A program made the translations under genes and the position numbers. The notes under the pieces are model-generated. The model ran no database searches. It was given only the letters and a program-made list of their open reading frames with translations, and was not told the origin of the DNA. This document shows, one piece after another, positions 2,747 through 35,955 of a stretch of 35,955 nt of DNA. Each line of letters starts with the position of its first letter. Within the stretch, counting starts at the first letter, position 1. The stretch comes from Candidatus Poribacteria bacterium (GTDB lineage: Bacteria; Poribacteria; WGA-4E; PCPOR2b): the NCBI GenBank assembly GCA_022822785.1, contig JAJEAL010000110.1:1-35955 (forward strand), given 5' to 3'.

Positions 2747-5700
2747 GTGCGTAGTATCGAACCGATTCTTGGACTGGTCATTGTTCTCTCGTGTGCGTGT
2801 GGTGTGCTTTACGAGGTGATTTGGGCACGTCAGCTAATCCTTTTTTTCGGGAGTCCTGTGTTTGCGGTGAGCACAGTGTTGAGTGCGCTGGTAGGGGGGA
2901 TGGCGCTTGGCAGCTTCTACTTCGGGCTGTTGGCAAATGGGGAAAAGCGACTATTGCGCCTGTATGCTCTTCTGGGGGCAGGGCTCGGTATCTTTGCGCT
3001 CATTTTTCCAACTCTATTAGATATTCTCAACGCTATCTGTGTTCTCGTCTATCGTGGACTGGATGCGGGATTCCATTTCCTTTCGCTGATTCGGTTTGTC
3101 CTATCGTTTATCGTCTTGTCGATTCCGTCAATACTGATGGGCGGCGCACTACTCCTACTCGGTAGGGCTGCAAAGGAAAGGTGTACAGGATTCAAAGCTG
3201 ACCGCCTCTTCATAATTAATATACTTAGTGCAAGCATCGGTTGTATCGCCACCGGATTTTTCCTCATCCAGCTTTTAGGTGTTCAAAATTCGGTTTATTT
3301 AGGCGTAGTGATTAATTTGATTCTGGCGGGGATTGGTTTCGGTTTAGATCGTTCTTGGTCTCAAACTGCTGTGGACGTGCCGCAGGACATGAACGATGAA
3401 GCGGAAACACCTCCAACAGGAGAAATGTGGCGACCGCTGTTATGGACATTTGCCGGCTCCGGCTTCTGTGCAATGGCTTATGCGGTCCTCTCGACACGAA
3501 TTCTGACCGCCTTTTTCGGTAACGCGCCTTACGCTTTCTCGGTCACGTTAACCACCTTACTGCTCGGTATTGCTGTTGGGAGTTTTCTCTTCGCAGCGAT
3601 TGCACGTCGAATTCAATCGGTGGGAAACCTTCTTGGCTTGGTTCAGATTGGGATAGGGTTATCTGTTGTCGCGCTGATGCCGGCTTTCGGAAACTTGTAT
3701 GGAATCAGTAGGGGATTGCAAGCGACGTTTGGGACGGGACGTATCTGGGAATTTGTTGCTGGCATCCTCCTGATAGCTGTTCCCGCCCTTTTGATAGGAG
3801 CTAATTTTCCATTGGTCAGGCGAGTTTGTGCCGATGCCGAATCACAATCGACGATTCGTTCTTTCAGCGCACTTGGTGCCCTCCTCGGATCCCTGTGTAC
3901 AGGATTTATCCTGATTCCGCTAATTGGGTTGCGTCCAAGTCTTCTCTTAATCTCTGGATTAAATGCGGCTATGGGGTGTCTGTTAATTCTTCGGAGTTCC
4001 GAGGAATCACAGATTGCCAGTGGTGCTGCGATTGGTGGAGCGATTCTGACCGTTGGAGTAGGATTTATGGTGTTGCTGTGGGGGGGCTCGTCGCCTTTTC
4101 TGACAAACGGAGCCTTTTGGACGCAACGTATAAACGATACGCTAATTGAGCATACTGAGACTATTGACGCGAACATCACCACATTTATGGATGACCAAGG
4201 TATCCACCGACTCTATGTTGACAATGACGAAATCATTGATACTTCTCGCCGGGGATCTACATCGCATCGTGTGATTGCTCATCTCCCACTGCTGCTGCAT
4301 CCTAATCCTGAACGTGGGCTTGTTCTCGGATTCGGGCTGGGAGTTACAGCCCATTCGATGGTTCAACACGGTGTCCGTGTCGATGTTGTTGAAAATCCGA
4401 AGGGACTAGTCGAAATCGCGCGAAAATACTTTGCTGATGTGAACCTTAACGTTCTTGATAGTTCGCTGCTCAATCATGGGTTTAACGACGAACGAAACTA
4501 TGTGTTGATGGTGCCGAACCGATACGATGCTATTTCCATCGGTGCCTTCCATCCGCTTGTGAGTACACGAGGGGCTAACCTTTACACCTCAGATTTCTAC
4601 CGGTGGTGCAAGCGTATTCTTTCAGATGATGGTATAATATGCCGGTGGCTACCACTCAGGCGGATGCCGGAGACACATCTCAAGATGGTGGTAAGGACCT
4701 TTATTGAGGTATTTCCGCACGCGACAGTTTGGTATAAATACACGCCAGACTTTGCTCTCCTGATTGGTACGCCGCAGCGGTTAGAAATCAATTATAAGCG
4801 TTTTATGGAAAGAGCACAGACTCCGAGAATCCGGGAACTTCTAGCAGTCGATGACCTTGATGGACTGTCACTACTCGATTCATTCATGATTGGTGAGCAA
4901 GCAATACGGGCGTATACCGATGATGCTCCAACCCATACAAACAATCAACCACGTTTAGAATTCTTCCATCCTAGCGCACTAGTGAATACAACTCACAAAA
5001 ATATTGAGGCGCTAGCGAAATACCGAGAGCCCTTCACACCCTATTTGGTGAATTACGGCTCCACCATGAGCGATAAAGTTGAGGTCCGAAAGCGGATTAA
5101 TCTATATTTTGATGCCACACAAAAGCTGATTGAGGGACAGGTCGAACATACCAAAGGGCAATATGAGAAGGCTGTGGGTATATTGAATCAAGCGGTAGCT
5201 ATTAATCCGGACGACAATACGATTCGGTACAATCTTGGTGCTGCGGTAGAATTAGCAAACAAGGGTTATCAAGAAGAACTTAAGCAGACCGAGAAGGCGC
5301 TTAAACAAGTACTACAAAGCAATCCGCGAGATGCCCAAAAACAGGTTGAATTGGCTATCACCTATGAGCTTCAGGGGGAATTGGCAAAGGCAGCGAGCGC
5401 GTTTGAGGAGGCGCTGAAATATGATCCGAACCGTGTAGAACTTTATTCATTGCTCGGCCCGATTTATGAACGTCAAGAACGCTATGATGAAGCCTTGTAC
5501 ACATACCAGAGGCTCGAGGGGTTGGAACCCAATCTACCTGCTATCATTTTCGGTGCTATGGCATCAATTTATCATTTTCATAAGAAAATGCTGCCTGAAG
5601 CACTCGAATATGCACAAAAAGCGTTGGCGGTGGATGTAAATTCTTGGCGTGTGCATAATCTGCTCGGAGCTATCTATACGGATAAGAGCGAGTTTGGACA

Positions 5701-5908
5701 GGCGATTGCGGCCTTCAAGGCTGCAATGCAACTCGCGCCGAATGAACCGATGCCGCACAGCGATCTGGCAAAGGTATACCTTACCCAAGGTAGGTACGAT
5801 GAGGCGTTGAAATCGGTTGACGCTGCAATTCGTCTCGCACCGGGAGATTCGTACTTTCAAGAACATCGTCGTCAGATTCAAGCAGCAATGACATCGAATA
5901 AAGAATGA
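2747..5908 (+). CDS. Membrane spermidine-synthase-like protein with C-terminal TPR domain
   Basis: 1053 residues from a GTG preceded by GGGGGTGA. Three parts are visible. Residues about 1-455 contain roughly a dozen hydrophobic helices, beginning with the VLYEVIWARQL pattern typical of membrane-embedded 'spermidine synthase' proteins. Residues about 460-760 form a class I methyltransferase-like Rossmann domain, with GFGLG near 528-532 and an acidic VVEN strand end. It includes the family stretch YDAISIGAFHP and later LYTSDFYRWCKRILSDDG. Residues about 795-1045 are tetratricopeptide repeats (for example AVGILNQAVAINPDD). Members of this family are annotated as spermidine synthases by similarity only. 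The acidic residues a true synthase needs are not clear here, so another transferase or transporter-like role is possible. TPRs suggest a protein partner. Confidence 0.75.
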   Translation: MRSIEPILGLVIVLSCACGVLYEVIWARQLILFFGSPVFAVSTVLSALVGGMALGSFYFGLLANGEKRLLRLYALLGAGLGIFALIFPTLLDILNAICVLVYRGLDAGFHFLSLIRFVLSFIVLSIPSILMGGALLLLGRAAKERCTGFKADRLFIINILSASIGCIATGFFLIQLLGVQNSVYLGVVINLILAGIGFGLDRSWSQTAVDVPQDMNDEAETPPTGEMWRPLLWTFAGSGFCAMAYAVLSTRILTAFFGNAPYAFSVTLTTLLLGIAVGSFLFAAIARRIQSVGNLLGLVQIGIGLSVVALMPAFGNLYGISRGLQATFGTGRIWEFVAGILLIAVPALLIGANFPLVRRVCADAESQSTIRSFSALGALLGSLCTGFILIPLIGLRPSLLLISGLNAAMGCLLILRSSEESQIASGAAIGGAILTVGVGFMVLLWGGSSPFLTNGAFWTQRINDTLIEHTETIDANITTFMDDQGIHRLYVDNDEIIDTSRRGSTSHRVIAHLPLLLHPNPERGLVLGFGLGVTAHSMVQHGVRVDVVENPKGLVEIARKYFADVNLNVLDSSLLNHGFNDERNYVLMVPNRYDAISIGAFHPLVSTRGANLYTSDFYRWCKRILSDDGIICRWLPLRRMPETHLKMVVRTFIEVFPHATVWYKYTPDFALLIGTPQRLEINYKRFMERAQTPRIRELLAVDDLDGLSLLDSFMIGEQAIRAYTDDAPTHTNNQPRLEFFHPSALVNTTHKNIEALAKYREPFTPYLVNYGSTMSDKVEVRKRINLYFDATQKLIEGQVEHTKGQYEKAVGILNQAVAINPDDNTIRYNLGAAVELANKGYQEELKQTEKALKQVLQSNPRDAQKQVELAITYELQGELAKAASAFEEALKYDPNRVELYSLLGPIYERQERYDEALYTYQRLEGLEPNLPAIIFGAMASIYHFHKKMLPEALEYAQKALAVDVNSWRVHNLLGAIYTDKSEFGQAIAAFKAAMQLAPNEPMPHSDLAKVYLTQGRYDEALKSVDAAIRLAPGDSYFQEHRRQIQAAMTSNKE

Positions 5909-9526: not shown

Positions 9527-10360
9527 GTGAAGGAAGAAATCCATTTCAGTCCAGAAGACCAACAGTTCATTAATCGAGCCACAGATTTTTGCCAACGAAT
9601 GGGTGAACATGCGGTTCTCATGTTAGTTGGGAGTCGTGCCGCTAACTTTGCTGATGAATGGTCAGATCTTGACCTGTGTGTCATTGGCGATAAGCAATGC
9701 CTCTCCGATGAAGATCGAAGAAGTTATGAACAGTGCCAGCAACTCTTCGTCGATAGAGGCGATTATGAAGCGCATTGGTCGTTTTTTGATGAAGGTGACC
9801 TGCGGGCGTGGTTGGAGACGTGGCCAAATGAGATGCTGTGGCTTATTGCCACTTCGCAGGCCCTCTACGGTTGCTCAACTACTGCTGAAGAACTGAAGCA
9901 GCGTTATCGACTGTATCCACCACCGGTTGCGGAGGATAAGCTGAAGTGGTTATTCGGGAAGTATTATTACTCACAGCGCGGTCCCTTGGCTATGGCAGCT
10001 CGAAGTCACGCGGAAATGGCGTTTGTTGCGGCTGGGAATGTCATCGAATACCTGTGCAAAATTTGCTGCGTTGCTGAGGGGCAGCCGTTTCCCTACAGCA
10101 AATGGCTGATTGAAGCAGCTAAACGGACACAATTGGGCGCAATAGTATATCCTTCGATTCAACGGACGGTAGATGGCATTGGGGAATTTCTTACTCCACC
10201 TGCGGATCGGGACTGGCGTGATTGGGTGCCAGTAAAAGAATTGCGGGCAACGTTGCCGATTGTTCAAAATCAGCTGAAAGCACTGGGTTGGAGTTGCGAT
10301 TGGATTGACAATCCGGAGAGAACTTATTTTGAAGAGACGGTGAGACGACCAGCCCCCTGA
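9527..10360 (+). CDS. Nucleotidyltransferase-fold protein
   Basis: 277 residues from a GTG with GAGAGGG upstream. The N-terminal domain has the DNA polymerase beta-type nucleotidyltransferase signature: G35-S36-R37 and, ten residues on, D47-x-D49 (WSDLDL), which bind metal and nucleotide. The rest is mostly helical with several conserved-looking aromatic residues (KYYYSQRG, then a long helix through NVIEYLCKI), resembling the helical half of DUF4037 or aminoglycoside-type nucleotidyltransferases. Substrate is unknown; candidates are small molecules, RNA ends or a protein side chain. It lies between aspS and ddl but with gaps of 188 and about 100 bp, so co-transcription is uncertain. It has no adjacent HEPN partner gene, which argues against an MNT/HEPN toxin pair. 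Confidence 0.7.
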   Translation: MKEEIHFSPEDQQFINRATDFCQRMGEHAVLMLVGSRAANFADEWSDLDLCVIGDKQCLSDEDRRSYEQCQQLFVDRGDYEAHWSFFDEGDLRAWLETWPNEMLWLIATSQALYGCSTTAEELKQRYRLYPPPVAEDKLKWLFGKYYYSQRGPLAMAARSHAEMAFVAAGNVIEYLCKICCVAEGQPFPYSKWLIEAAKRTQLGAIVYPSIQRTVDGIGEFLTPPADRDWRDWVPVKELRATLPIVQNQLKALGWSCDWIDNPERTYFEETVRRPAP

Positions 10361-10461
10361 GCGCCGACGAGCCGTAATTAGAACGCTAAACGGATGTATC
10401 GGGCATGACTCTTGCACAAGATTTTACATGATTTTCAATGACGACGAAGGAGATTTTTGAT

Positions 10462-11427
10462 ATGGAGAAAGAGCAGCTGCTCGAAAAGCGAATTGCGGTG
10501 TTGATGGGTGGAAGATCCGGTGAAAGACAGGTGTCATTACGGTCCGGCGCGCGGATCGCTGCCGCACTCGAACGGCTTGGCGCGGATGTAGTAACAATTG
10601 ATCCAATTGACCTCGATTGGGTGGAGCGGATGCGCGCTGCCTCGGTTGAAATTGCATTTCTAGGGGTGCACGGCAAAGGTTGCGAGGATGGAACAATTCA
10701 AGGGGTCTTAGAGGCATTTGAGTTTAGCTACACCGGCTCTGGGGTGCTGGCAAGTGCGTTGGCAATGAATAAGACTATGACAAAACGGGTACTATCGACG
10801 TTGGACATTCCGACGCCGGATTACCTTGCGGCTGACCCGAACCAAGATTTAGATTTGCAATGCGAGGAAGCAATCGATCGGTTGGGATTGCCGATTGTAA
10901 TTAAACCTGCGTCGGAGGGATCGAGCATTGGAGTGTCGATTATTTCTGATCTGCCAGAGGTTAGGCGAATTGCCTACAAAACCCAACATCAGTTCGGGGA
11001 AATCTTATTTGAGCGATATATCCGGGGGCAGGAAGTGACGGTCGGATTGTTGGGGATTAGTGAAAACCTTCGCGCTTTACCCATACTTGAACTCGTTCCC
11101 AAACGGGAGTTTTACGACTACGAAGCGAAGTATACCGAGGGCCTGACCGAGTTCATTATTCCCGCAAGACTATCCGATCCGTTGACCAAACAGGTCCAGG
11201 AAATTGCACTCAGGACGCACCAAGCCGTTGGTTGTTGGGGGGTCTCAAGGGTGGATATGTTAGTTGACACCGATGGACAGCCGTACGTGATGGAAATTAA
11301 TACGCTGCCGGGGCTTACCGACCTCAGTGATTTACCGGCGCAGGCAGCAGCAGCAGGCATGTCTTATGATGAATTGATCTATGAAATCTTAACCAGTGCA
11401 CAAGTTCGTCTCATCGCATCGGATTAA
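10462..11427 (+). CDS. ddl: D-alanine--D-alanine ligase
   Basis: 321 residues from the ATG at 10462, chosen because AAGGAG lies seven bases before it; an in-frame ATG 24 bases earlier lacks such a site. It joins two D-alanines with ATP for peptidoglycan precursors. Visible motifs in order are MGGRSGERQVSLRSG at the N-terminus, FLGVHGKGCEDGTIQG (HGxxGEDG loop), YTGSG with the MNK that opens the ATP-grasp domain, VIKPASEGSSIGVS, and the metal-binding end VMEINTLPGLTDLSDLP. The last differs slightly from the usual PGMT..S..P. Its presence implies the cell makes peptidoglycan. It converges with a minus-strand gene 39 bp downstream. Confidence 0.95.
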   Translation: MEKEQLLEKRIAVLMGGRSGERQVSLRSGARIAAALERLGADVVTIDPIDLDWVERMRAASVEIAFLGVHGKGCEDGTIQGVLEAFEFSYTGSGVLASALAMNKTMTKRVLSTLDIPTPDYLAADPNQDLDLQCEEAIDRLGLPIVIKPASEGSSIGVSIISDLPEVRRIAYKTQHQFGEILFERYIRGQEVTVGLLGISENLRALPILELVPKREFYDYEAKYTEGLTEFIIPARLSDPLTKQVQEIALRTHQAVGCWGVSRVDMLVDTDGQPYVMEINTLPGLTDLSDLPAQAAAAGMSYDELIYEILTSAQVRLIASD

Positions 11428-11453
11428 TATTGACTTGTTGTTAATGCCACTCC

Positions 11454-11494
11454 GATTCCAATTCACCTACGCAGAGGTGAATTGTGTGGGAATC
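11454..11494. terminator. Hairpin between convergent genes (possible bidirectional terminator)
   Basis: AATTCACCT (11460-11468) and AGGTGAATT (11475-11483) form a perfect 9-bp stem with a six-base loop. Flanking GATTCC and GGAATC can extend the pairing. It sits between the stop of ddl and the stop of the convergent SDR gene, partly inside the end of the latter. No T-run follows on either strand, so Rho-independent termination is unproven. Confidence 0.4.
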
Positions 11495-12501
11495 ACATCA
11501 GAGACAACGCCCTGCCGAAATTCAACCGCGGAATCAATCATCTTGAAGATATCAAACTGTGGGCGGTAGTCGATGAGCCGGGCACCTTTGCTAAGATCAA
11601 ACTCATAATAGGTTGGGGTGTTGTCTGCCAATCGAACATCGACGTAGTCCACCCCCAATTTCTTTGCCAGATAAGGAACTGTTTCCTCCCATGTAAAGGG
11701 CTTTGGTCCGGCAAGTTGGAAGGCTTCTCCGATCGCCTCCGGTTTACCGAGCGCGGCTAAGAAACCGAGTACGATGTCGCGCACATCCGCTATATGTTTC
11801 TTGTAGGATCTACCATTCTCATCTCGTGCGATGAGCAGACGTTCTCCGGCATTTCCTAGCCCTAGTAGTTGTCGGCGGGTTTCGGCGGCTGCACCTGTGG
11901 TCCTGCCTGCGTAAGCGTTCTGCCAGTTGTCAAGACGAAATTGGGCGAAATTCAGGATTTCATCGCCGGCGGCCACGAAGGCGAAGCGGAAAATCGAAAT
12001 CGGTAACTGGTAGCTCCGATAATACCCGCGACACATCTCCTCGCCAAGCACCTTTGAGAGTGCGTACCATCCGCCCGGTTTCTGCGACATCTCGTCCTCG
12101 CGGATAGGATCTGATAGCCCACCGGGGAGATATTTTTGGTAGGTTGCGTCAGTGCTTGCAAAGAAGAAGTGTTTAAGGTCGCCCGCATTTTCACGGGCAG
12201 CCTCCAGCATGTTAAATGTGCCACGGGCGTTAATCTCGAAATAATCTTCATTGGAGAAGGGCCCACCGCCTTGGAACGCTGCGCCCAGATGGCAGATTGC
12301 TTCTACGCCAGTGACTGCTTTATTTACATCAGCCGGATTAACTAAACTCCCCTCAACCAATTCAATCGGAAGCCCTGCAAGTTTTTCCAGCCGTAAATCC
12401 CTTTCCCAAACTAATCCGCGTATCTCATGTCCTTCATCTATGAGCGCTTTGGCAAGGTTGGCACCGATTCTGCCAGATATACCGGTGATGAGAATCTTCA
12501 T
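11467..12501 (-). CDS. NAD-dependent epimerase/dehydratase (extended SDR)
   Basis: 344 residues; AAAGGAGG lies just before the ATG on the minus strand. The nucleotide-binding motif is GISGRIG (7-13). The active site is S116/T117 with Y146-x3-K150 (YALSK). These mark the extended SDR family that epimerises, dehydrates or reduces nucleotide sugars and related substrates using NAD(P). C-terminal half includes FQLAGPKPFTWEETVPYLAKKLG, usual for the substrate domain. It is transcribed alone, convergent with ddl and divergent from the phosphatase gene, so context gives no pathway. Substrate unknown. Confidence 0.85.
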   Translation of the reverse strand: MKILITGISGRIGANLAKALIDEGHEIRGLVWERDLRLEKLAGLPIELVEGSLVNPADVNKAVTGVEAICHLGAAFQGGGPFSNEDYFEINARGTFNMLEAARENAGDLKHFFFASTDATYQKYLPGGLSDPIREDEMSQKPGGWYALSKVLGEEMCRGYYRSYQLPISIFRFAFVAAGDEILNFAQFRLDNWQNAYAGRTTGAAAETRRQLLGLGNAGERLLIARDENGRSYKKHIADVRDIVLGFLAALGKPEAIGEAFQLAGPKPFTWEETVPYLAKKLGVDYVDVRLADNTPTYYEFDLSKGARLIDYRPQFDIFKMIDSAVEFRQGVVSDVIPTQFTSA

Positions 12502-12745: not shown

Positions 12746-14501
12746 TGAAGGTAGAACCCTAAAAAGCCAAATTGTTATTATGTTTCTTCTCATCGGGCTA
12801 TCGCCACTGTTTTCTGCCTCGATTCTTGCTTTCTATTCAAGTCAGCAAACATTAAATGAAGTTGTCGGTTCTATCGAGCGAGATCTCGCTGTCGAGGCCA
12901 TGGATAAGATTGACCGTGAGATTGAGAACACCCGCCTTTTGGTCGATAATTGGACCAGCTTTGAAAATCGAAAGGTGTTGGTGAATGCGGTGACCGAAGG
13001 TGGACGTCGGAGCTACGACCAATTATTTGATGAATGGAACCGTGACGGATTAACTTCAACGCCCGGGGCAAAATTTCTCAAAAGACTCCAAGAAACGGAT
13101 CCAACGCATTTCCGAGAGCTTTTTCTGACCGATCTGCGCGGATACGTTGTCGCTGCTACAGGCAGAACCTCCGATTTCGATCAAGGACCAGAAGATGATC
13201 CGCCTTTTGGTGAAACGTGGTGGGCGCAGGCAAAAGAGAAGGGCGAATATCTCGGGGACATTAACTATGATGACAGCGCGGGGGTTTATTCTATTGATAT
13301 CAACATGAGTATCAGGGATGATGATGAGCGAACGGTAGGCATTATAAAGGTGGTCTACAGTATGGAGAATATCCGTGACCTAATTGAAGGTGAAGGGGAT
13401 ACGCGGCATTATGAGCTGCTGAATCGATACGGTTATATCGTTGCAGCTGCTGAAGCAGAGCAGGAACGAATTCTAACGGACACATCGCGCGTCGTGCTCC
13501 CTGATAACAAGGAGGTATGGAAGAACCGAGCGGCTAAGAACGGGTTCGATATCGGGGAGGTGGAGGGCGAAAAGGTGCTTATTGGTTGGTCTCGTGGCGC
13601 GTTGTGGACCGTATTGACTTACAGTCCTCTGGACGCAGCTTATGCGCCCTTGGAGCAGCAGGCACGCTGGCTCATGGGGGTATCAGCAGTCGCTACAATT
13701 ATCATAGTCCTTGTCGCACTCGCTATCGGAAATCGCGTCGTTTCTGAGTTGCTCGGTAAGGAGCTTATGGCGCAGGAGATTCAAACCGCTCAAAGTATGC
13801 AGATGGGATTGTTGCCTGAATCACCGGATATCGACGGACTCGATCTAGCCGGGCGCTGCCTCGCAGCGAACCGTGTTGGCGGAGATTATTACAATTATCT
13901 ATGGATGGATCCCGATGAGAAAAAACTTGCAATCGTCATCGCCGATGTGGCTGGACACGATATGTCAGCAGCAATTCCTGCGGTGATGTTCTCTGGGATG
14001 TTGGAATTTGCCGTCAAGGAAGGGACACCGAGTGCGATGCTCTCTGCCCTAAATCAATCCCTTTGTCAACAACCTAAACGCACACCTTTTATTACTTGCT
14101 GTATTGGAATTGTTGATCTGGAAGAAAAGCAGATGCAGTGGTCAAAAGCAGGTCATCCCGATATTTATCACTATCAGAGGGATACTGATACCATCAATGA
14201 GTTGGTTGCCGAAAGCTACCCGCTCGGTGTCTCCCAGAAGGGGAAGTACATAGATGAAACCGTTGCACTGTCCGAAGGAGACCTGCTCATCTTTTATACG
14301 GATGGACTGCCAGAGGCTACTAACCCCAATAGTGGTAGGATTTACAGCTATAGCCGGCTTGAAAGGAGCATCCACCGCGTTGCACAAGACAATGTTTCAT
14401 CAATAGAGAGCATTGACCAAATGATAAACGATGTGCGGGGGTTTATTGAGTATACTGAGCCGGAAGACGATATAACGGTTGTCGCGGCTAAGGTAACCTA
14501 G
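12732..14501 (+). CDS. Membrane sensor serine phosphatase (Cache-like domain + PP2C/SpoIIE domain)
   Basis: 589 residues. A first membrane helix (about 13-35) is followed by an extracytoplasmic segment (about 36-308) with Cache-like features (RELFLTDLRGYVVAATG, then WWAQAKEKGEYLGDI). A second helix lies at about 312-335 (ending VALAIGNRVV). The cytoplasmic PP2C/SpoIIE domain (about 345-589) shows the metal-site aspartates in VGGDYYNY, IADVAGHDM, FYTDGLPEAT and PEDDITVV. Such proteins sense an external ligand and dephosphorylate serine/threonine targets, usually anti-anti-sigma (STAS) proteins. No HAMP linker is recognisable between helix and phosphatase, and no STAS or anti-sigma kinase gene is adjacent. 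Start choice is weak: a poor CGGAG precedes ATG, and another ATG lies two codons on. Confidence 0.88.
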   Translation: MLMRNEGRTLKSQIVIMFLLIGLSPLFSASILAFYSSQQTLNEVVGSIERDLAVEAMDKIDREIENTRLLVDNWTSFENRKVLVNAVTEGGRRSYDQLFDEWNRDGLTSTPGAKFLKRLQETDPTHFRELFLTDLRGYVVAATGRTSDFDQGPEDDPPFGETWWAQAKEKGEYLGDINYDDSAGVYSIDINMSIRDDDERTVGIIKVVYSMENIRDLIEGEGDTRHYELLNRYGYIVAAAEAEQERILTDTSRVVLPDNKEVWKNRAAKNGFDIGEVEGEKVLIGWSRGALWTVLTYSPLDAAYAPLEQQARWLMGVSAVATIIIVLVALAIGNRVVSELLGKELMAQEIQTAQSMQMGLLPESPDIDGLDLAGRCLAANRVGGDYYNYLWMDPDEKKLAIVIADVAGHDMSAAIPAVMFSGMLEFAVKEGTPSAMLSALNQSLCQQPKRTPFITCCIGIVDLEEKQMQWSKAGHPDIYHYQRDTDTINELVAESYPLGVSQKGKYIDETVALSEGDLLIFYTDGLPEATNPNSGRIYSYSRLERSIHRVAQDNVSSIESIDQMINDVRGFIEYTEPEDDITVVAAKVT

Positions 14502-14510
14502 CCCAAAGAT

Positions 14511-15890
14511 GTGCGACATCTCGTAACTGATGAGAAACTTATGGCAAACGCATATCCGGCACAAGCCTTTTGCAGCCGAAAGCACAGGATGAAAAACGAA
14601 GATTCGGCGGGACAACTGACTGCTTCTACCATAGACATGACAGTGGATGCCGTCAGAGTTCATGAAAGCGATAAACGGATTCAACCGATCTCCTTCCGGG
14701 AGTTGGTTCCTGAAATCAAAGATACAGGGTACTTGACACACTCGATTTTTTATTATCCCGCTAAGTTTATACCTCATGTTGTAAGATATGCACTGAAATC
14801 TTTCACAAAGGAAGGGGATTGGGTTGTTGATCCGTTCGCAGGTTCCGGGACTGTTGGTGTCGAGGCGTATATATGCGGACGAAACGCGTTTCTACTCGAC
14901 CTGAACCCACTCCTGAATTATATGATGCCACTTAAGGTGTATACTGACACGGAGAGATTGCGTGAAACCCATCTAAGTCAGATGTTGGAGGGTCTGGAAA
15001 AAAGTACAAATCCCTTCACCCCAGCGTGGTCAAATATAGCGTATTGGTATCCGCCTGAAATGTTGGAGGTTCTCAGTAGATATTGGGGATTTATCAAAAG
15101 CAGCGAAGATAACCCATATACCGCAATTATCCAATCATCTCTCTTAAAGGCGGGTAAACATTTCTCCTATGCAGAGCATAGGACCCCGAAACTGTTCCGG
15201 TCCAAAAGTAAGCTAAAATATGTTGAGGAGCTGCTGCAAACGGATTGGAGGGGAAAATTGAGCGAAATGATTCGGGGACATTCGCTAGAGACTTTGCGGC
15301 GTCTAAATGACTTCGCAACACTTACGAGCCAACACAATAGCTGTATTGAGTTTGAGGGTGGGGTGGATTCGTCATATTATTCGTTTCAGCGGGAGTTTGA
15401 TGCTCTAATCACATCGCCACCTTATCTACAAGCCCAAGAATACATGCGGACAGTCAAAATGGAGCTGTTTTGGTTGGGCTATAACGACGAAGAAATAAGA
15501 AAGTTGTCGAGACTTGAAATACCATATCGGAAGGCAGACAGGATAATTGAAACCCCAACACTGGACAAAATACGGGTGGCACTCACGCGGGATGACCTCG
15601 TTAAATTATTAGACTCCTATTTCTGCCATACCATCAATGCACTTGAAAATGGAATGAGCCAGTTAAAAGAGGCTGGAACGGCTTGTATTTTCATCGGAAA
15701 TCCACTGATTGATGGGATAAAAGTGGAAATCTGGCGGATATTGATGGAATATTTTATGGACAACGGATATGGCTTTGAGAATTTGTATGAGGATCGGATA
15801 AAGCATAGACAGCTGTTCGGCACTCGAAAAAATAAAAATCCAGATGGAATGAAGTCCGAGTTTTTATTGATTTTAAGAAAGGAGCGATAA
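14511..15890 (+). CDS. Site-specific DNA methyltransferase (N4-cytosine/N6-adenine type)
   Basis: 459 residues if the GTG at 14511 is used; ATGs at 14541, 14589 and 14637 are alternatives, since recognisable similarity starts only near residue 60. The SAM-binding motif is DPFAGSG (107-113) and the catalytic motif is TSPPY (301-305). S-P-P-Y is the form usual for N4-cytosine enzymes, though N6-adenine cannot be excluded. Motif I precedes motif IV by nearly 190 residues, which could hold the target recognition region. No restriction endonuclease or specificity gene is visible within several kb on either side, so it looks solitary. It begins 9 bp after the phosphatase stop on the same strand. 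Type is well supported; target sequence is unknown. Confidence 0.82.
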   Translation: MRHLVTDEKLMANAYPAQAFCSRKHRMKNEDSAGQLTASTIDMTVDAVRVHESDKRIQPISFRELVPEIKDTGYLTHSIFYYPAKFIPHVVRYALKSFTKEGDWVVDPFAGSGTVGVEAYICGRNAFLLDLNPLLNYMMPLKVYTDTERLRETHLSQMLEGLEKSTNPFTPAWSNIAYWYPPEMLEVLSRYWGFIKSSEDNPYTAIIQSSLLKAGKHFSYAEHRTPKLFRSKSKLKYVEELLQTDWRGKLSEMIRGHSLETLRRLNDFATLTSQHNSCIEFEGGVDSSYYSFQREFDALITSPPYLQAQEYMRTVKMELFWLGYNDEEIRKLSRLEIPYRKADRIIETPTLDKIRVALTRDDLVKLLDSYFCHTINALENGMSQLKEAGTACIFIGNPLIDGIKVEIWRILMEYFMDNGYGFENLYEDRIKHRQLFGTRKNKNPDGMKSEFLLILRKER

Positions 15891-27926: not shown

Positions 27927-28781
27927 TTACGAGGCAGCTGCCTCAATCGCGCGACGGGTGTAGACCTTCGCCAAATTCTGGCGATACGCCTGACTTGCGT
28001 GAATGTCCTCTAACGCAGTTATTCCGTCAACCGCTTTCTCTGCAGCGGCAGCGATGTTACCAGCGGTTAGTGCCGCTCCTGTCAATTCGGACTCGACACC
28101 CGATGCCCGATAGGGAGCATCTGACACGCCGGTGATACCGACAGCAACGCTTTGGCAGGTATCGCCAGCCTTAGTCAAAACAACTGCTACACCGGTCAGA
28201 GCAAATCCTGATGCGACTTGATGCATCTTCAGGTATGTCCCCTTGGTGTCTGCATCTGGAATCGATACATGGATTGCCGTAAGGATTTCATCTTCGCCAA
28301 GGTCTGTTTCGTACAGTCCTTGGAAGAAATTGGTTGCTTTGACAGTGCGTTGGCCATCGGGTCCAGCGATCTGGAGGTCAGCATCAAGTGCGAGGATTGC
28401 CGCGGGCCAATCAGCAGCGGGATCCGCGTGTGCGAGACTTCCACCAAGTGTGCCCTTGTTGCGTACCTGTACATCCCCAATTTCGCTAGCCGTCTGTGCA
28501 AGCAGCGGCACCCTCTGTTGGACCAGATCTGCACTCTCCAATTCATGATGCGTCGTCAGCGCACCGATAACCAATTTGTCGTCTGACTCGGAAATCCCTC
28601 TTAAGCTGCCAATCTGTCCGATATCGATGATAACCGCCGGTTCTGCCAAGCGTAATTTCATCGTTGGGATCAGGCTATGCCCACCGGCGAGCACCTTCGC
28701 ATCGTCTCCATGTTCCTGTAAAAGCGACAATGCTTCATCGAGTGCTGTTGGTGCAAAGTATTCAAAACTTCCCGGAATCAT
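27927..28781 (-). CDS. coxM: Molybdenum hydroxylase FAD-binding subunit (CoxM-like)
   Basis: 284 residues with AAGGAGG before ATG. FAD-binding motifs are AGGHS (32-36) and TLGGSLAHADPAAD (111-124), as in the medium subunit of CO dehydrogenase and other xanthine-oxidase family enzymes. It passes electrons from the iron-sulfur subunit to an acceptor. It is third in the order S-L-M on the minus strand, 29 bp after coxL. The symbol reflects family resemblance; the substrate may not be CO. Confidence 0.88.
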   Translation of the reverse strand: MIPGSFEYFAPTALDEALSLLQEHGDDAKVLAGGHSLIPTMKLRLAEPAVIIDIGQIGSLRGISESDDKLVIGALTTHHELESADLVQQRVPLLAQTASEIGDVQVRNKGTLGGSLAHADPAADWPAAILALDADLQIAGPDGQRTVKATNFFQGLYETDLGEDEILTAIHVSIPDADTKGTYLKMHQVASGFALTGVAVVLTKAGDTCQSVAVGITGVSDAPYRASGVESELTGAALTAGNIAAAAEKAVDGITALEDIHASQAYRQNLAKVYTRRAIEAAAS

Positions 28782-28810
28782 TCGTTATTTCCTCCTTTCT
28801 TCACTTTAGA

Positions 28811-31147
28811 TTAACCCTTCGCATCTTGGATCGCCTGCCACACACGGTTCGGCGTTAACGGCATTTCAATGTCCTTCACTCCAAACGGTGATAAAGCGTC
28901 CACAACAGCATTGACCATACACGGCGTTGAGCCAATCGTCCCGGCTTCGCCAACGCCCTTGACCCCCATCGGGTTTACAGGTGAGGGTGTCACCGTGTGG
29001 TCTGTTTCAAAGTGAGGTACCTGTGTCGCCTTGGGAACGGCATAGTCCATAAATGAGCCGGTCAACAGCTGTCCGCTCTCATCGTAAACTGCCCCTTCAT
29101 ACAATGCTTGCCCCAAACCTTGGGCAATGCCACCATGTACCTGTCCAGCAACGAGTAAAGGATTGATGATATTGCCAACATCGTCAACACATACATATCG
29201 CTGAATTTCAATCTCGCCGGTATTGGCATCCACCTCAACAACTGCAATGTGAGCACCGAACGGATACGTGAAGTTCGACGGTTCAAAGAAATGTGTTGCT
29301 TCAAGTCCAGGCGTTGTGTCCGGTGGCAGATTCTTGGCGACGTGTGCTTCTAGGGCAACCTCTGCGAAAGCGACTGACTGATCCGGCGAACCTTCAACTA
29401 AGATGTTTCCATCTGCAAAGACGAGGTCGTCAGGATTCGCTTCCAGTATATGGGCTGCGAACTTTGCCATCTTCTCTTTCACCTCGCCCGCAGCGATAAC
29501 CATCGCGGTTCCCCCGACAGCTGTCGCTCGACTACCAAAGGTGCCGATACCGTAGGGTTGTCTTCCTGTGTCTCCGTGAACCACTATGACATCATCAATG
29601 TCAACGCCGAACTCATCGGCAACCATCTGTGCAAAGGTGGTCTCTTGACCTTGCCCGTGTGGAGAAACACCTGTCAAGACTGTAATCTTACCAGTGGGTT
29701 CAACACGAACAGTGCTACTTTCCCAACCGCCAGCGGGCATCGCTATAGATGGTCCCATCCCACAAATCTCCGCATAGGTAGAAATACCGATTCCTAGATA
29801 TCTTCCCTCCTGACGGAGCTGTGCCTGCTGATTTCGTAGCGCATCATAATCGACAATGTCCAACGCCTTATTGAAGCTTTCTTGGTAGTTGCCGCTGTCG
29901 TAGATAATTCCAGTTGGAATTTCCAGGGGGAACTCAGCCGGCTGCGGGAAGTTCTTGAACCGAATGTCTTTCGGATCCATTCCTACTGTTGACGCTGCTA
30001 AATCAACCATACGCTCAATGATGTAGGTGGCTTCAGGCCGTCCTGCACCACGATATGCATCCGTTGCCATCTTATTCGTTAAGACGCCGACCATCTCAAT
30101 CTGGACATTCGGAATCTTATAACAACCTACAATCATAAGGTTTGTCAGTGTAGGAATTAACGTGGTCAGCAACTGATAGGAGGCACCAAGGTCGGCGAGG
30201 ATTCTCGCACGGATCCCAGTGATTGTACCATCGTTGTTGACCGCGACATCCACATAGTTGACTTGGTCTCGCCCATGGATTGTTGTTGTAAAGTTCTCAG
30301 TCCGCTTTTCGGTCCATTTCACCGGCTTGCACAGCTGTATCGCCAAATGTGAGACAACGACCTCTTCAGGGTACACATTCAGCTTACTGCCAAAGCCGCC
30401 GCCAACTTCCGGGGCGATGACGCGCACTTTCTGTTCAGGCACGTTCACGATAAGCGATAGCTGAGTTTTAAGAATATGAGGAACCTGCGTTGATGACCAG
30501 ACGGTCAGGGTGCCTTCACCCGGTAGGTATTCAGCCAATACTCCACGCGTTTCCATCGCATTCGGAATTAGACGCTGATTGACGAAACGTTGAGATACGA
30601 CATGATCCGCTTCTGCGAGCGCCGCATCTACATCTCCTGCTTCCAGCGGCATCGTAAAACCGATATTATCGCCAAAGTCATCGTAAATCAACGGCGAGTC
30701 TGCTTCTACTGCCTTGTCAAGGTCAGTAATGGCGGGTAGTTCTTCATAATCAACTTCAATCAAGTCTAGCGCATCTCTGGCAATATACGCCTCCGTCGCT
30801 ACAACCGCAGCGACTGGCTCGCCAACGAAACGTACACGTCCCACTGCAAGTGGCGGATGATCGGGAACCTTAAGATCCGGAATTTCTGCGCCACAAGGGA
30901 TACCCCCAACTTCGCCAAGATCATCGGCGGTAATCACCGTAACAACGCCAGGTAATTCTTTCGCTGCCGATGTATCGATGCTATTGATGACTGCGTGTGC
31001 ATAATCGCTACGTAGGAATGCACAGTGAAGGGTGCCCACTAGCTTAATATCGTCGACATAATGGGATAACCCTTGGATTAAGCGCGGGTCCTCACGTCGC
31101 TTAATCGGGGCACCCATCATCCGAGTCGGGGCCGCTATTGTCGCCAT
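28811..31147 (-). CDS. coxL: Molybdenum hydroxylase large subunit, form II CoxL-like
   Basis: 778 residues with AGGAGG before the minus-strand ATG. It starts with the MGAPIKRREDPRLIQG pattern of CoxL proteins and binds molybdopterin cytosine dinucleotide. The loop that in true CO dehydrogenase (form I) reads AYRCSFR with an active-site Cys here reads AYRGAGR (364-370), the form II signature. The active-site Glu is kept in GVGEAGTIGS near residue 735. Form II enzymes have been proposed to oxidise CO poorly or to act on other substrates such as aldehydes or N-heterocycles. Subunit order S-L-M agrees with form II. No cox accessory genes (coxD/E/F, maturation chaperones) are visible nearby. Confidence 0.93.
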   Translation of the reverse strand: MATIAAPTRMMGAPIKRREDPRLIQGLSHYVDDIKLVGTLHCAFLRSDYAHAVINSIDTSAAKELPGVVTVITADDLGEVGGIPCGAEIPDLKVPDHPPLAVGRVRFVGEPVAAVVATEAYIARDALDLIEVDYEELPAITDLDKAVEADSPLIYDDFGDNIGFTMPLEAGDVDAALAEADHVVSQRFVNQRLIPNAMETRGVLAEYLPGEGTLTVWSSTQVPHILKTQLSLIVNVPEQKVRVIAPEVGGGFGSKLNVYPEEVVVSHLAIQLCKPVKWTEKRTENFTTTIHGRDQVNYVDVAVNNDGTITGIRARILADLGASYQLLTTLIPTLTNLMIVGCYKIPNVQIEMVGVLTNKMATDAYRGAGRPEATYIIERMVDLAASTVGMDPKDIRFKNFPQPAEFPLEIPTGIIYDSGNYQESFNKALDIVDYDALRNQQAQLRQEGRYLGIGISTYAEICGMGPSIAMPAGGWESSTVRVEPTGKITVLTGVSPHGQGQETTFAQMVADEFGVDIDDVIVVHGDTGRQPYGIGTFGSRATAVGGTAMVIAAGEVKEKMAKFAAHILEANPDDLVFADGNILVEGSPDQSVAFAEVALEAHVAKNLPPDTTPGLEATHFFEPSNFTYPFGAHIAVVEVDANTGEIEIQRYVCVDDVGNIINPLLVAGQVHGGIAQGLGQALYEGAVYDESGQLLTGSFMDYAVPKATQVPHFETDHTVTPSPVNPMGVKGVGEAGTIGSTPCMVNAVVDALSPFGVKDIEMPLTPNRVWQAIQDAKG

Positions 31148-31185
31148 AGTATCAGTCCTCCTATTTGCGTCCTATATTTTGCTTG

Positions 31186-31659
31186 TTAGCCCTGCATCTT
31201 CTCCGCGGCGTATTGAACCGCTTCAACAATATGTTGATAGCCAGTGCAGCGGCAGAGATTACCTTCCAATCCGTGCCGAATTTCGTCTTCCGTCGGGTTG
31301 GGATTCCGTGCTAGCAACTGATGGGCTGCCATAATCATTCCAGGGGTGCAGAACCCGCACTGCAAACCGTGACGTTCCCAGAACCCTTCTTGGATCGGGT
31401 GGAGATCTCCATTCTGTGCCAAACCTTCAATGGTTGTGATTTCCGCACCATCCGCTTGGACTGCTAGCATCGTACACGATTTGACCGCTTGTCCATTGAC
31501 GGTAACCGTACAAGCACCACACAAGCTCGTTTCACAACCAACATGTGAGCCCGTCAGACCAACGACATCTCGGATGTAGTGAACCAAAAGCATCCGTGGC
31601 TCAACTTCGTGTGTGTGTGCCTCTCCATTAATTGTTGTATGAATGACTTTCTTAGCCAA
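31186..31659 (-). CDS. coxS: Molybdenum hydroxylase [2Fe-2S] subunit (CoxS-like)
   Basis: 157 residues from a TTG eight bases after AGGAGG on the minus strand; no better ATG fits. Eight cysteines for two [2Fe-2S] clusters are in place: C42, C47, C50 and C62 (plant-ferredoxin-type, [10 protein letters not shown]), and C101, C104, C136 and C138 (CGFC...CRC). It carries electrons from the molybdenum site in CoxL to FAD in CoxM. It is first in the operon, 38 bp ahead of coxL, with a promoter candidate about 75-105 bp upstream. Confidence 0.94.
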
Positions 31660-32046: not shown

Positions 32047-32074
32047 TTGCAAAAAAATAACAAAATGATAAAAT
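32047..32074 (+). promoter_or_regulatory. Candidate promoter for sigma-ankyrin gene
   Basis: TTGCAA (32047-32052) and TAAAAT (32069-32074) are separated by 16 bp in an AT-rich stretch, about 80 bp before the start codon. The string TGCAAAAAA followed by TAAAATAAA recurs before the second sigma-factor gene. Confidence 0.45.
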
Positions 32075-32153: not shown

Positions 32154-34436
32154 ATGGAAGAACTAGGATTACTTATCCGTTGTGCACAAGCCGGGGATCT
32201 GGACGCCTATAGTGCAATTGTTCAACAATTCCAAGACATGGCAGTGGGCTACGCCTACTCGATCTTGGGGGATTTTCATTTGGCTGAAGATGCCGTGCAA
32301 GAGGCGTTCATCGAAGCGTATCCGATTCTTTCAAGAGTCTACGGTCCTGCTGCTTTCCCGGGCTGGTTTCGGCGGATTATTTTCAAACATTGCAATCGTT
32401 TAACACGCGGGAAGCGCGACGAGCTTATGTCCCTGGAAACAATGGTCAATATACCTTCGGGTAGAAGGGACCCAGCGGTTGAAATTGAGGAACAAGAGAC
32501 GAAATCCCTCGTGTTGGCTGCGGTTGCTGCATTGCCGGAGAACCAGCGTCAGGTAACAACGCTCTTCTATATCAGCGGTTTTTCACAGAAACATATTGCG
32601 GACTTCCTAGAGGTACCGGTGACAACCGTTGATAACCGTCTTCGTGCCTCAAGGAAAAAGCTAAAAGCAACCTTACATTCTGAAAGGATGATTATCATGT
32701 TGAAAGATACACTTGGTGAAAACGCTCCCTCACGCGACGATTCTCTTGTTAATGCAATCGGCATCTGCAATGCAGCTCAGGCGGGGGACCTGCAACGGGT
32801 ACAGGAGATTCTCGCTGTCAAGCCGGAGTTAGCAACCCAAGATATTGCTTCAAATAATGAACATCAACCCATCCATCTTGCAGCAGAGGAAGGTCATGCC
32901 GAAATTGTGCGTGTGCTACTCGAAGCAGGTGCGGATCCGCTCAGCGGAATATATCCTCACCGTGACGCTACCAGTGCGCTCACTATGGCAAAGGACCGGA
33001 ATCACAGCCCTGTCGTTGAAGTTATTGAGGGGTGGCTCAACGAACAACGGGGAACAACGCCAAAAGGGGAAGCCTTAACTCGCGCTGCATCGGATGGCGA
33101 TATTGAGGGGATTCGCTCGCTGCTGAATGAAGATGGGAGACTTATCAATGCAACCGATGGAGGTGGAAAAACTGCGCTTTTCAAAGCAATAGAGCGGGGC
33201 GATCTATCACTTGTTCTTGAATTGCTAGACCGGGATGCCGATATTAACCATCGAGCCGCAGACGGAAGCCGACCGCTCCACCACTGTCTCGCACACAGTT
33301 GGAAGGTGCGAGACGAGATGTACAAAACCTACACTCTCCTCGCGGGTGCGCTGATCGCGCGAGGCGCACAGTATGATCTCTGGGTTGCCTGCGGCGTTGG
33401 CGATGTCGAAGGTGCGAAGCGGCTGATTGATGCCTGCAAGGACGCGATGCAGCTCTTCAAAAGCAGAGAGCCATTTTGGGGCGACTATGAGAACCCATTG
33501 GTCGTCGCCTGTTTCCGCGGGAATACTGAAATTGTCCGATTGTTGATTGATGCCGGGGCAGATCCCGATTCGCCGTTTGAGATTGATGTCGCCGGTGAGC
33601 AGGTGAAACAGTGGGGGCATCCACTTTGGCTGGCAGCAAATCGCGGACATTATAATGTTGTGAAGTTGCTTCTTGAGCGTGGGGCAAACCCAAACACAGC
33701 GGTCTATGCCTCCGGTAACGCTGTCTGCTGGGCATATCAATATGGACACAAGCGCGTCGCGGACCTGATGTTTCAGCACGGCGCTGTTGCTGACCTGTTG
33801 AGTTACTGTTTGACAAATAATCTCCCCGCTATTGCCGAGATTCTTCATCGAGACGCTTCGGAACGCAGAGATTTACTATGGAGCGCGATTCTGGCGGGCA
33901 ATATCGATGTAGTAGCGATGGGATTGCGCGATAACCCTCAGCTTGATGATGCCAAGTGGTTTGATCTGTTGGAACAATCGGTACGGGGTTGGCGTCTAGG
34001 CGACTTGAAAATCAACAACGACGGATTTGACCGGCGCAACTACATCACAATTTTAGATATGCTGCTCAGATATGGGATAGACCCAAACCTCCGGAATCCG
34101 AGGGATGACCGGTTCAATTTCACGATTCTGCATCACTTGGCTGGTAAGAGTTGCAATTCCAGAACTTATGGGCATACGGCGGAAGAGGTCGTTGAGTTTG
34201 CCCGTATGTTCATCAAGCATGGCGCCGATATTGACGCGATGGAAGATAAACTAAAATCTACTCCGCTCGGTTGGGCTGCACGATTTGGGCAGAAGAAGTT
34301 GGCTGAGTTCCTGCTTGAGCATGGCGCAAACCCGAATCTGGCTGGCGCACCGTGGGCAACCCCACTTGCTTGGGCAGAGAAGAAAGGGCATCCAGAAATC
34401 GCTGAAATCCTCCGAGAACACGGTGCCACAGCGTAG
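32154..34436 (+). CDS. ECF-type RNA polymerase sigma factor fused to ankyrin repeats
   Basis: 760 residues; AAAGAGG precedes the ATG. Residues about 14-88 are sigma region 2 (GDFHLAEDAVQEAFIEAY, then FPGWFRRIIFKHCNR). Residues about 118-175 are region 4, with a helix-turn-helix (FSQKHIADFLEVPVTTVDNRLRASRKK). Region 3 is absent, as in ECF factors. After a linker (176-205), ankyrin-type repeats continue to the end. The clearest are at about 237-263, 338-365, 447-472, 489-514, 702-728 and 735-757 (for example HLAAEEGHAEIVRVLLEAGADP), with degenerate ones between. The sigma part directs RNA polymerase to promoters; the ankyrin part probably binds a protein that controls it. No separate anti-sigma gene adjoins. 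One uninterrupted frame, so a true fusion in this sequence. Confidence 0.92.
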   Translation: MEELGLLIRCAQAGDLDAYSAIVQQFQDMAVGYAYSILGDFHLAEDAVQEAFIEAYPILSRVYGPAAFPGWFRRIIFKHCNRLTRGKRDELMSLETMVNIPSGRRDPAVEIEEQETKSLVLAAVAALPENQRQVTTLFYISGFSQKHIADFLEVPVTTVDNRLRASRKKLKATLHSERMIIMLKDTLGENAPSRDDSLVNAIGICNAAQAGDLQRVQEILAVKPELATQDIASNNEHQPIHLAAEEGHAEIVRVLLEAGADPLSGIYPHRDATSALTMAKDRNHSPVVEVIEGWLNEQRGTTPKGEALTRAASDGDIEGIRSLLNEDGRLINATDGGGKTALFKAIERGDLSLVLELLDRDADINHRAADGSRPLHHCLAHSWKVRDEMYKTYTLLAGALIARGAQYDLWVACGVGDVEGAKRLIDACKDAMQLFKSREPFWGDYENPLVVACFRGNTEIVRLLIDAGADPDSPFEIDVAGEQVKQWGHPLWLAANRGHYNVVKLLLERGANPNTAVYASGNAVCWAYQYGHKRVADLMFQHGAVADLLSYCLTNNLPAIAEILHRDASERRDLLWSAILAGNIDVVAMGLRDNPQLDDAKWFDLLEQSVRGWRLGDLKINNDGFDRRNYITILDMLLRYGIDPNLRNPRDDRFNFTILHHLAGKSCNSRTYGHTAEEVVEFARMFIKHGADIDAMEDKLKSTPLGWAARFGQKKLAEFLLEHGANPNLAGAPWATPLAWAEKKGHPEIAEILREHGATA

Positions 34437-34603: not shown

Positions 34604-34651
34604 AAATTTCGGAACTGTGTCTTAATGAGTGTAAGGGAGGAACAGAGAGCC

Positions 34652-35955
34652 ATGACTAAGGACAACACCCTCATCTATCGCGCACAAACTGGGGCTGAAG
34701 ATGCTTTTGCTGACCTGATGCGAGAGCATTACTCCTTTGTTTATGCAATTGTTATAAGAATGGTAAAAAATTCCCATGATGCTGAGGAGGTCGTTCAAGA
34801 CATCTTCCTCAACGCCTATCGAGGATTGACGCAGCTTGAAGATGTAACCAAATTCAAAAGCTGGTTGGGTGAGATTGCACAAAATTGTGGGCGAAACTGG
34901 CTCCGAAAACAGCGGGGCGATACCGTATCCATTGACGAAGTGAGCGAACAGATACTTCGAACGGAAGATTCCCCTGATGAGCGATTAATACGGCAGGAGC
35001 AGAGAGAATTAATTCGCCGGACAATGGAGACGCTTTCGGAAAAAGATAGAGAGATTGCCCAGGCGTATTACCTTGATGGTGCAAGCTACGATGAACTAAC
35101 AGAGACGCACGGGCTATCCTACAATGCTATTGCGTTTCGGTTGTCTCGTGCGAAGCGACAACTCACCAAGCGGTTGCAATACCTTCTGACCGGTATCTTC
35201 GTTTCTCCCGCGACGACACTGAAAAAATTCTACTCAAGTGGTCTAACTGCCATGAAAGTTGGAATGGTGCCCAAAATAACAGTTGGGGTAGCAGCACTGA
35301 TTGCTCTCATTTTCATCGGTTTCATCGGTGTCCGCCAGATGACTGCACCCACAGTCGAGGAGCGAGTGTATTTGTCGCCATGGGAGGACGGCACTGAACG
35401 TCCACGAAACAGCGGCGAAGACTTGGCTGCACAAACTAATTCTACCCAAGATAGGGCAAACCGGGACAATCTATCACAGATTTCCACAGAAGGACTGGAA
35501 ATGGTTGATGATTCCTTGGATCAACTGGAAGAAACAGATACAGCACAGTTCGCAGCAGAGGCGGAATTTGAGATAGAAACGGATCCGGATCTCTTTACCG
35601 ACATATCTACGCTGTTAGATGACGAGGGCCGGCTCGCTGAAGATATAATGAATGCATACGTGGAAGCGGTAAGAAGTCTTAACGTTGAAGGAATACTTTC
35701 GGTAATCACAGGGGCTGCAAAGGAAGAATTTGAGAGTGAAATGTTGCCTGTCTTAAATGGAGAGTTACCGGAAGATATTGCAGATATATTTTATGATATG
35801 TTGCCAGAAGAGACAGCAGATGAAATGATTCAGACAGTAAAGGAGGAGATGCAACGAGCACTTAAACAGATGCTTAGTTCGGCAGAGGTCGTGAGTAGTG
35901 AATATGTCGGCGATGAACTCCACTTCCAAGTAAGAGTATCGTCACCGGAGATACC
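34652..35955 (+). CDS. ECF-type sigma factor with C-terminal membrane helix and acidic extracytoplasmic domain, 3' end missing
   Basis: AAGGGAGG precedes the ATG; 434 codons are open to the window end without a stop. Residues about 8-88 are sigma region 2 (SHDAEEVVQDIFLNAYRGL, then FKSWLGEIAQNCGRNWLRK). Residues about 121-176 are region 4 (LSEKDREIAQAYYLDG, SYDELTETHGLSYNAIAFRLSRAKRQL). A single hydrophobic helix follows at about 209-227 (ITVGVAALIALIFIGFIGV). The remainder (228-434+) is strongly acidic and polar, ending in a helical stretch and the start of a beta-rich part (ELHFQVRV). If the N-terminus is cytoplasmic, the tail is outside. This suggests a membrane-tethered sigma factor that must be released or act at the membrane. 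It is not in the same transcript as the preceding gene. Confidence 0.88.
   Translation, partial: MTKDNTLIYRAQTGAEDAFADLMREHYSFVYAIVIRMVKNSHDAEEVVQDIFLNAYRGLTQLEDVTKFKSWLGEIAQNCGRNWLRKQRGDTVSIDEVSEQILRTEDSPDERLIRQEQRELIRRTMETLSEKDREIAQAYYLDGASYDELTETHGLSYNAIAFRLSRAKRQLTKRLQYLLTGIFVSPATTLKKFYSSGLTAMKVGMVPKITVGVAALIALIFIGFIGVRQMTAPTVEERVYLSPWEDGTERPRNSGEDLAAQTNSTQDRANRDNLSQISTEGLEMVDDSLDQLEETDTAQFAAEAEFEIETDPDLFTDISTLLDDEGRLAEDIMNAYVEAVRSLNVEGILSVITGAAKEEFESEMLPVLNGELPEDIADIFYDMLPEETADEMIQTVKEEMQRALKQMLSSAEVVSSEYVGDELHFQVRVSSPEI

Follow-up and report, generated by a model that had tools for sequence, protein, structure and literature searches.

An ECF sigma factor and an ankyrin-repeat array joined in one polypeptide of Candidatus Poribacteria

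What could control an ECF sigma factor that has no anti-sigma gene at its side and that continues, on the same chain, into a long array of ankyrin repeats? The question is posed by a gene near one end of a 35,955-nucleotide stretch of DNA (the window) from an uncultured marine Candidatus Poribacteria bacterium, whose relatives found in genome contigs are all Candidatus Poribacteria MAGs. The gene is one intact ORF of 760 amino acids, with an ATG start and a single frame running to the stop, and a preliminary description had proposed that it combines sigma region 2, sigma region 4 and ankyrin repeats in a single chain. This architecture is borne out by the ORF itself, by matches above the cut-offs of Pfam and TIGR02937 and by intact orthologues. 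The features of the locus are:

32047..32074, + strand: putative housekeeping-type promoter TTGCAA-16-TAAAAT (consensus scan; match to consensus only)
32154..34436, + strand: sigma-ankyrin fusion gene (ORF list, Pfam, intact orthologues)
32220..32393, + strand: sigma region 2, residues 23-80 (Pfam Sigma70_r2; aligned to SigW, SigH and RpoE structures)
32283-32321, + strand: core-binding segment AEDAVQEAFIEAY in sigma region 2, residues 44-56
32511..32663, + strand: sigma region 4, residues 120-170 (Pfam Sigma70_r4_2, 44.4 bits)
32676..32753, + strand: linker, residues 175-200 (motif common to the clade; low-confidence predicted helix-turn-helix)
32727-32741, + strand: PSRDD motif in the linker, residues 192-196
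32751..34433, + strand: ankyrin array, residues ~200-760 (Pfam Ank_2, repeat profile, Foldseek ankyrin matches)

Both sigma regions score above their curated Pfam cut-offs (Sigma70_r2 at 30.6 bits against 24, Sigma70_r4_2 against 25.7), which places the protein among the ECF sigma factors, and the NCBIfam model for sigma70-ECF (TIGR02937) is passed with 73.2 bits against 42.9. Ank_2 matches seven stretches of the tail (192 bits, E 1.7e-57). A profile built from the protein's own repeats finds 13 units, some of them degenerate, at residues 238-758, and residues 200-232 read as one further unit, so the array has about 13-15 units. AlphaFold2 models most of the array in the full-length protein at pLDDT 60-92, and the PDB matches of the array model in Foldseek are solved ankyrins. 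With only six sequences usable in the alignment, the model of the sigma part is poor (pLDDT about 29-50), and the packing of head against array has no confident model (pTM 0.43 and 0.32, with low sigma confidence, in runs on the full length and on residues 1-262). No transmembrane stretch was found in the protein.

Is the head still a sigma factor? Its region 2.2 core-binding segment, AEDAVQEAFIEAY, aligns with AEDIAQEAFIRAY in the solved structure of SigW, and D46, Q49 and E50, within AEDAVQEAF, match SigW and are nearly invariant in the subfamily. In sigma-70 factors these positions have a role in core binding. Since the contact residues are conserved, the head looks competent as a sigma factor, and sigma activity is the function that its sequence suggests; loss of the region 2 contacts, named in the preliminary description as a finding that would speak against it, did not occur.

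The fusion itself is well attested. Orthologues of 760 residues, 84-88% identical and without stops, exist in three other genomes of the same genus (G002, G003 and G004), and dN/dS is 0.06-0.16 in the sigma part and 0.07-0.12 in the ankyrin part, with strong purifying selection on head, linker and array alike. Intact orthologues and low dN/dS together exclude chance and misassembly, in a comparison where all sequences come from metagenome-assembled genomes. Among other relatives, G007 has both head and array, cut by a contig end, and G005 carries a frameshift near codon 350, after which its contig ends. G006 has an array without a sigma head, 79% identical to the window array, which shows that the array can persist alone. 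It begins TLKETLRGKDSSSGDSL at the place where the window reads MLKDTLGENAPSRDDSL, and no sigma remnant was found upstream of it; the likely linker remnant and the clean upstream region make loss of the head the likelier direction there, and the freestanding array may thus be derived. More distant arrays (34-38%) in G009, G012 and G014 begin without the linker. The preliminary description had also named, as grounds for abandoning its reading, homologues with the two parts in separate genes together with an assembly error; as a whole this does not hold, as the orthologues are fused, and the array without sigma in G006 may be a derived loss. Comparison between genera shows higher identity in the array (78-79%) than in the head (53%), with 78% for the array and 53% for the sigma part in G007; this fits a specific ligand for the array.

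Third-position differences between G002 and G003 fall from ~0.4 in codons 1-120 to ~0.03 in codons 141-180 and much of 300-690 and rise again to ~0.4 in codons 701-760, which suggests that the fusion gene is a recombination mosaic among close relatives. The break points lie near codons 125-140, 240-290 and 690, none of them at a domain boundary. An AU test rejects grouping of the G007 head with the window's heads (p 0.0235, on a sigma part cut at the contig end to ~112 columns), and on these alignments an exchange of heads in G007 is likely. Clean swapping of heads was considered and set aside: with the G007 sigma truncated and the mosaic break points away from the domain border, we do not claim a precise module swap.

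How far does this kind of head extend? We ran a head profile over 85 poribacterial genomes and read 40 loci. In a tree of 56 heads, 41 form a single poribacterial clade with support of 100/100, and their tails include 31 of ankyrin type (labelled by a phmmer match to the window array, E up to 3.7e-8; among those examined, Pfam confirmed the label in seven in addition to the window). Of the other tails, two are AAA+ domains of the sigma-54-activator type, and SAICAR synthetase and TPR occur once each. Two further heads, which carry adenylosuccinate lyase and were left out of the tree by a length filter, are placed in the clade by score (181-195 bits, where heads of the outside group reach up to 166 bits). 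The ankyrin label needs at least six changes on the starred branches of the tree, which means that tails were gained, lost or exchanged several times. The ankyrin array had been called unusual, and among ECF factors at large it is; within this lineage, with some 30 such fusions, it is not.

Some of the individual tails deserve description. A head with sigma regions 2 and 4 is fused to SAICAR synthetase (PurC) in L064:3959-5401 (G005) and L156:216-1670 (G047). Two families of the phylum have this architecture, and in G005 an ordinary PurC exists besides the fusion. In L126:345-2378 (G046) and L132:637-2670 (G047) a sigma head is followed by a PSRSA linker and adenylosuccinate lyase, and this fusion is the only ADSL_C match in each of the two MAGs. 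ECF heads are joined to an AAA+ domain of sigma-54-activator type in L125:1-1476 (G046) and L135:355-1641 (G049), and to a bifunctional-nuclease (BFN) domain in L143:340-1467 (G047), which has a close relative in L146 (G046). Another poribacterial family (f3) has dozens of ECF candidates per genome, many about 1000 aa long, and the tails read there are WD40 (L170, L171 and L173) or sortilin/BNR propellers (L175, L177 and L076).

Head and tail are joined by a linker that turned out to be a mark of the clade. The segment quoted in the preliminary description, MLKDTLGENAPSRDD, comprises residues 182-196, and most clade members read roughly M(V/I)xxxLxxxRPSRDDAF after sigma4. Of 39 clade members, 29 have the pattern PS[RKQN][DNST] no more than 50 residues past the end of sigma4, where the motif rate elsewhere in the tails predicts 0.24, in counts that include close orthologues and so are not independent; the motif was defined after the window linker had been seen, and the test sequences come mostly from other genera. 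By tail, it is present in 25/31 ankyrin, 2/2 AAA+ and 2/2 PurB proteins and in 0/1 PurC, 0/1 TPR and 0/2 with unknown tails, while none of the 14 ECFs outside the clade has it. As the motif precedes tails of different kinds, the linker belongs to the head and not to the ankyrin tail. Low-confidence AlphaFold2 models show two helices joined by a turn, one at residues 177-189 and the other starting at 197, and PSRDD-x-F looks like a helix-capping box or structural junction in these predictions; on that reading its conservation calls for no more than an ordinary structural role. Of the hinge or cleavage site suggested earlier, the conserved feature stands and nothing was found in support of cleavage, so that a structural junction or head-docking element would fit the linker better. 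It is even conceivable, though we would sooner doubt it than accept it, that Poribacteria have evolved an interchangeable sigma chassis, in which an ECF head and PSRDD linker receive sensor tails of unrelated folds (ankyrin, AAA+, PurB and possibly PurC) to give many one-component sigmas, each with a direct readout of protein partners or metabolic flux.

The surroundings of the gene agree with the absence of a neighbouring anti-sigma gene that had been presumed. None was seen next to it: downstream lies a second ECF factor, inside which the contig ends at 35955, and the divergent upstream operon (27927-31659) encodes the three subunits of a molybdenum hydroxylase of the xanthine/CO dehydrogenase type. 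The canonical ECF arrangement, a cognate anti-sigma gene next door, was not found at the fusion gene. Both neighbours recur within the genus and are not found beside other members of the sigma clade, and in the set examined no neighbour recurs across the clade, the matches beyond genus synteny being mostly sigma or ankyrin genes. A block from ~32046 to the start codon, which includes the putative promoter, is conserved in four genomes, even in G003, whose DNA further upstream is unrelated. The promoter-like site, a consensus match only, suggests that the fusion gene is transcribed by the housekeeping polymerase. Rfam finds nothing at the fusion locus.

The adjoining ECF gene of the window (34625-35953) has, as read by eye, a membrane-helix-like stretch and an extracytoplasmic tail. 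Tandem ECF factors also lie beside the fusion in relatives (L060:8449-9633 and 13191-14597; L062:8499-9920 and 10131-11552), and one ECF among them has a fused peptidase M16 domain (L060:10290-12962). Elsewhere in the window, the large protein encoded at positions 2747-5908 combines a spermine-synthase-like domain with TPR repeats at its C-terminal end.

What is the role of the array then? The reading that we prefer, and to which we give somewhat better than an even chance, is that in this ECF sigma factor the function of an anti-sigma factor has passed to the C-terminal ankyrin array of the same chain. The head, judging from its conserved residues, would bind core RNA polymerase and recognise a promoter, and the array, by analogy with the TPR tail of ECF42, would bind a cellular protein and thereby alter the access of the head to polymerase. 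The linker, a predicted short helix followed by the PSRDD turn, is the standard junction of the clade, to which, as sequence comparison shows, different tails have been attached during evolution. If the gene is made from a housekeeping-type promoter, as suggested, its control would lie at the level of the protein and not in autoregulation. The effect of a tail differs between known cases, since ECF42 needs its tail for activity and the tail of ECF41 inhibits. On heads related to that of the window there are other modules known for sensing or interaction (such as AAA+, TPR and metabolic enzymes), and repeat tails that act by protein interaction have precedents in ECF42 (TPR) and ECF57 (WD40) (PMC8999054). 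By this analogy it is reasonable to propose a built-in switch that would stand in for an anti-sigma factor.

Since some of the tails are enzymes, the main rival is a sigma head that serves as an anchor and brings the activity of its tail, be it a scaffold, an ATPase or an enzyme, to polymerase or promoters, the tail being an effector and not a gating sensor. The same head and linker do carry PurB and PurC, AAA+ domains and ankyrins, but the studied ECFs with C-terminal tails are gated by those tails (PMC8999054), and a 560-residue ankyrin array by itself has no catalytic function to deliver; for the window protein we consider this unlikely. Another reading, which we hold improbable, is that the head has ceased to be a sigma factor and works as an adaptor that binds DNA or polymerase on behalf of an ankyrin protein whose role lies elsewhere, for instance in host interaction or defence. 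In its favour, the match to Pfam region 2 is modest at 30.6 bits, sponge symbionts have ankyrin proteins for which a link to host interaction has been made (PMC3909097), and the phage-defence sigma factor family MzaA also matches ankyrins. However, the core-contact residues and region 4 are kept, dN/dS in the head is low, and the vicinity of the fusion gene showed no recognised MZA partner genes.

Cleavage of the linker, freeing the head or the ankyrin protein, would resemble the activation of IutY and the ECF52 type through proteolysis of fused C-terminal extensions (PMC8999054), and the freestanding G006 array begins within the linker. Yet the window protein has no transmembrane stretch, no protease gene recurs beside the fusions, and the motif, read as a helix N-cap, stands before tails whose folds are unrelated, which leaves a proteolytic switch distinctly improbable. 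That an assembly or frame artefact joined two genes is a negligible prospect, already refuted by the orthologues: the data are from MAGs and the G005 gene carries a frameshift, but the identical 760-codon structure recurs in three other genomes and there are about 20 further fusions in other families.

In reviews of non-canonical ECFs (PMC8999054 among them) the tails listed are of SnoaL, TPR, WD40, cysteine-rich and membrane type, with no mention of ankyrin. No description of an ECF-ankyrin fusion was found in the literature searched, a search that did not extend to the main ECF classification, and MzaA is the only named sigma-plus-ankyrin precedent found. Viral contigs held no relatives of the fusion protein, and in plasmids and phages ankyrin and sigma were matched only apart from each other; the one Nonomuraea plasmid match that runs past the sigma part reads by eye like an ECF with a SnoaL-like tail and not ankyrin. 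Beyond Poribacteria the search took in plasmids, phages and viral contigs and, for other phyla, close relatives of the window protein, so the clade may be wider than shown, or already known to curators. The sigma heads and linkers of one type with many different tails form a family that appears to have gone unremarked, the tails probably acting as built-in sensors. It matters for the control of ECFs without anti-sigma partners, where 15 of 26 groups with extensions are unstudied (PMC8999054). One head type with many tails offers a natural test of tail gating, and the clade is a possible source of modular sigma switches. Sponge-associated bacteria have ankyrin proteins that are commonly presumed to act on the host, and for some of these the clade would mean a cytoplasmic, transcriptional role.

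Among known systems, the closest in plan is ECF42, an ECF head with C-terminal protein-interaction repeats and without an anti-sigma factor, for which control by a bound protein has been proposed (PMC8999054). The window tail is, however, ankyrin of ~560 residues, not the TPR of about 200 residues that defines ECF42, and the window has the PSRDD linker and no recurrent YCII-type neighbour was seen there. ECF57 likewise has a repeat-rich C-terminal extension, of WD40 type and not ankyrin; WD40-tailed ECFs are present in relatives of the window genome, and the propeller-tailed ECFs in the tree (sortilin/BNR type) fall outside the window's clade. ECF41 and ECF56 share a regulatory C-terminal extension on the same chain, theirs being SnoaL, whereas the window protein has no SnoaL match above cut-off (best SnoaL_2 at 15.1 bits against a cut-off of 27). 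MzaA of the MZA anti-phage system (NCBIfam NF041931), named a sigma-70 by NCBI, has a profile that matches ankyrin at positions 6-91, but the window protein reaches 87.7 bits against an equivalog cut-off of 800, with the best stretch in the ankyrin region only, and in MzaA the ankyrins lie at the N-terminal end, so that the order appears reversed in a comparison made on the ankyrin region alone. The best reading by analogy is that the window protein would be a one-component ECF, with the tail as its protein-binding control module, that works like ECF42 with its TPR or ECF57 with its WD40 tail, and is a member of neither group.
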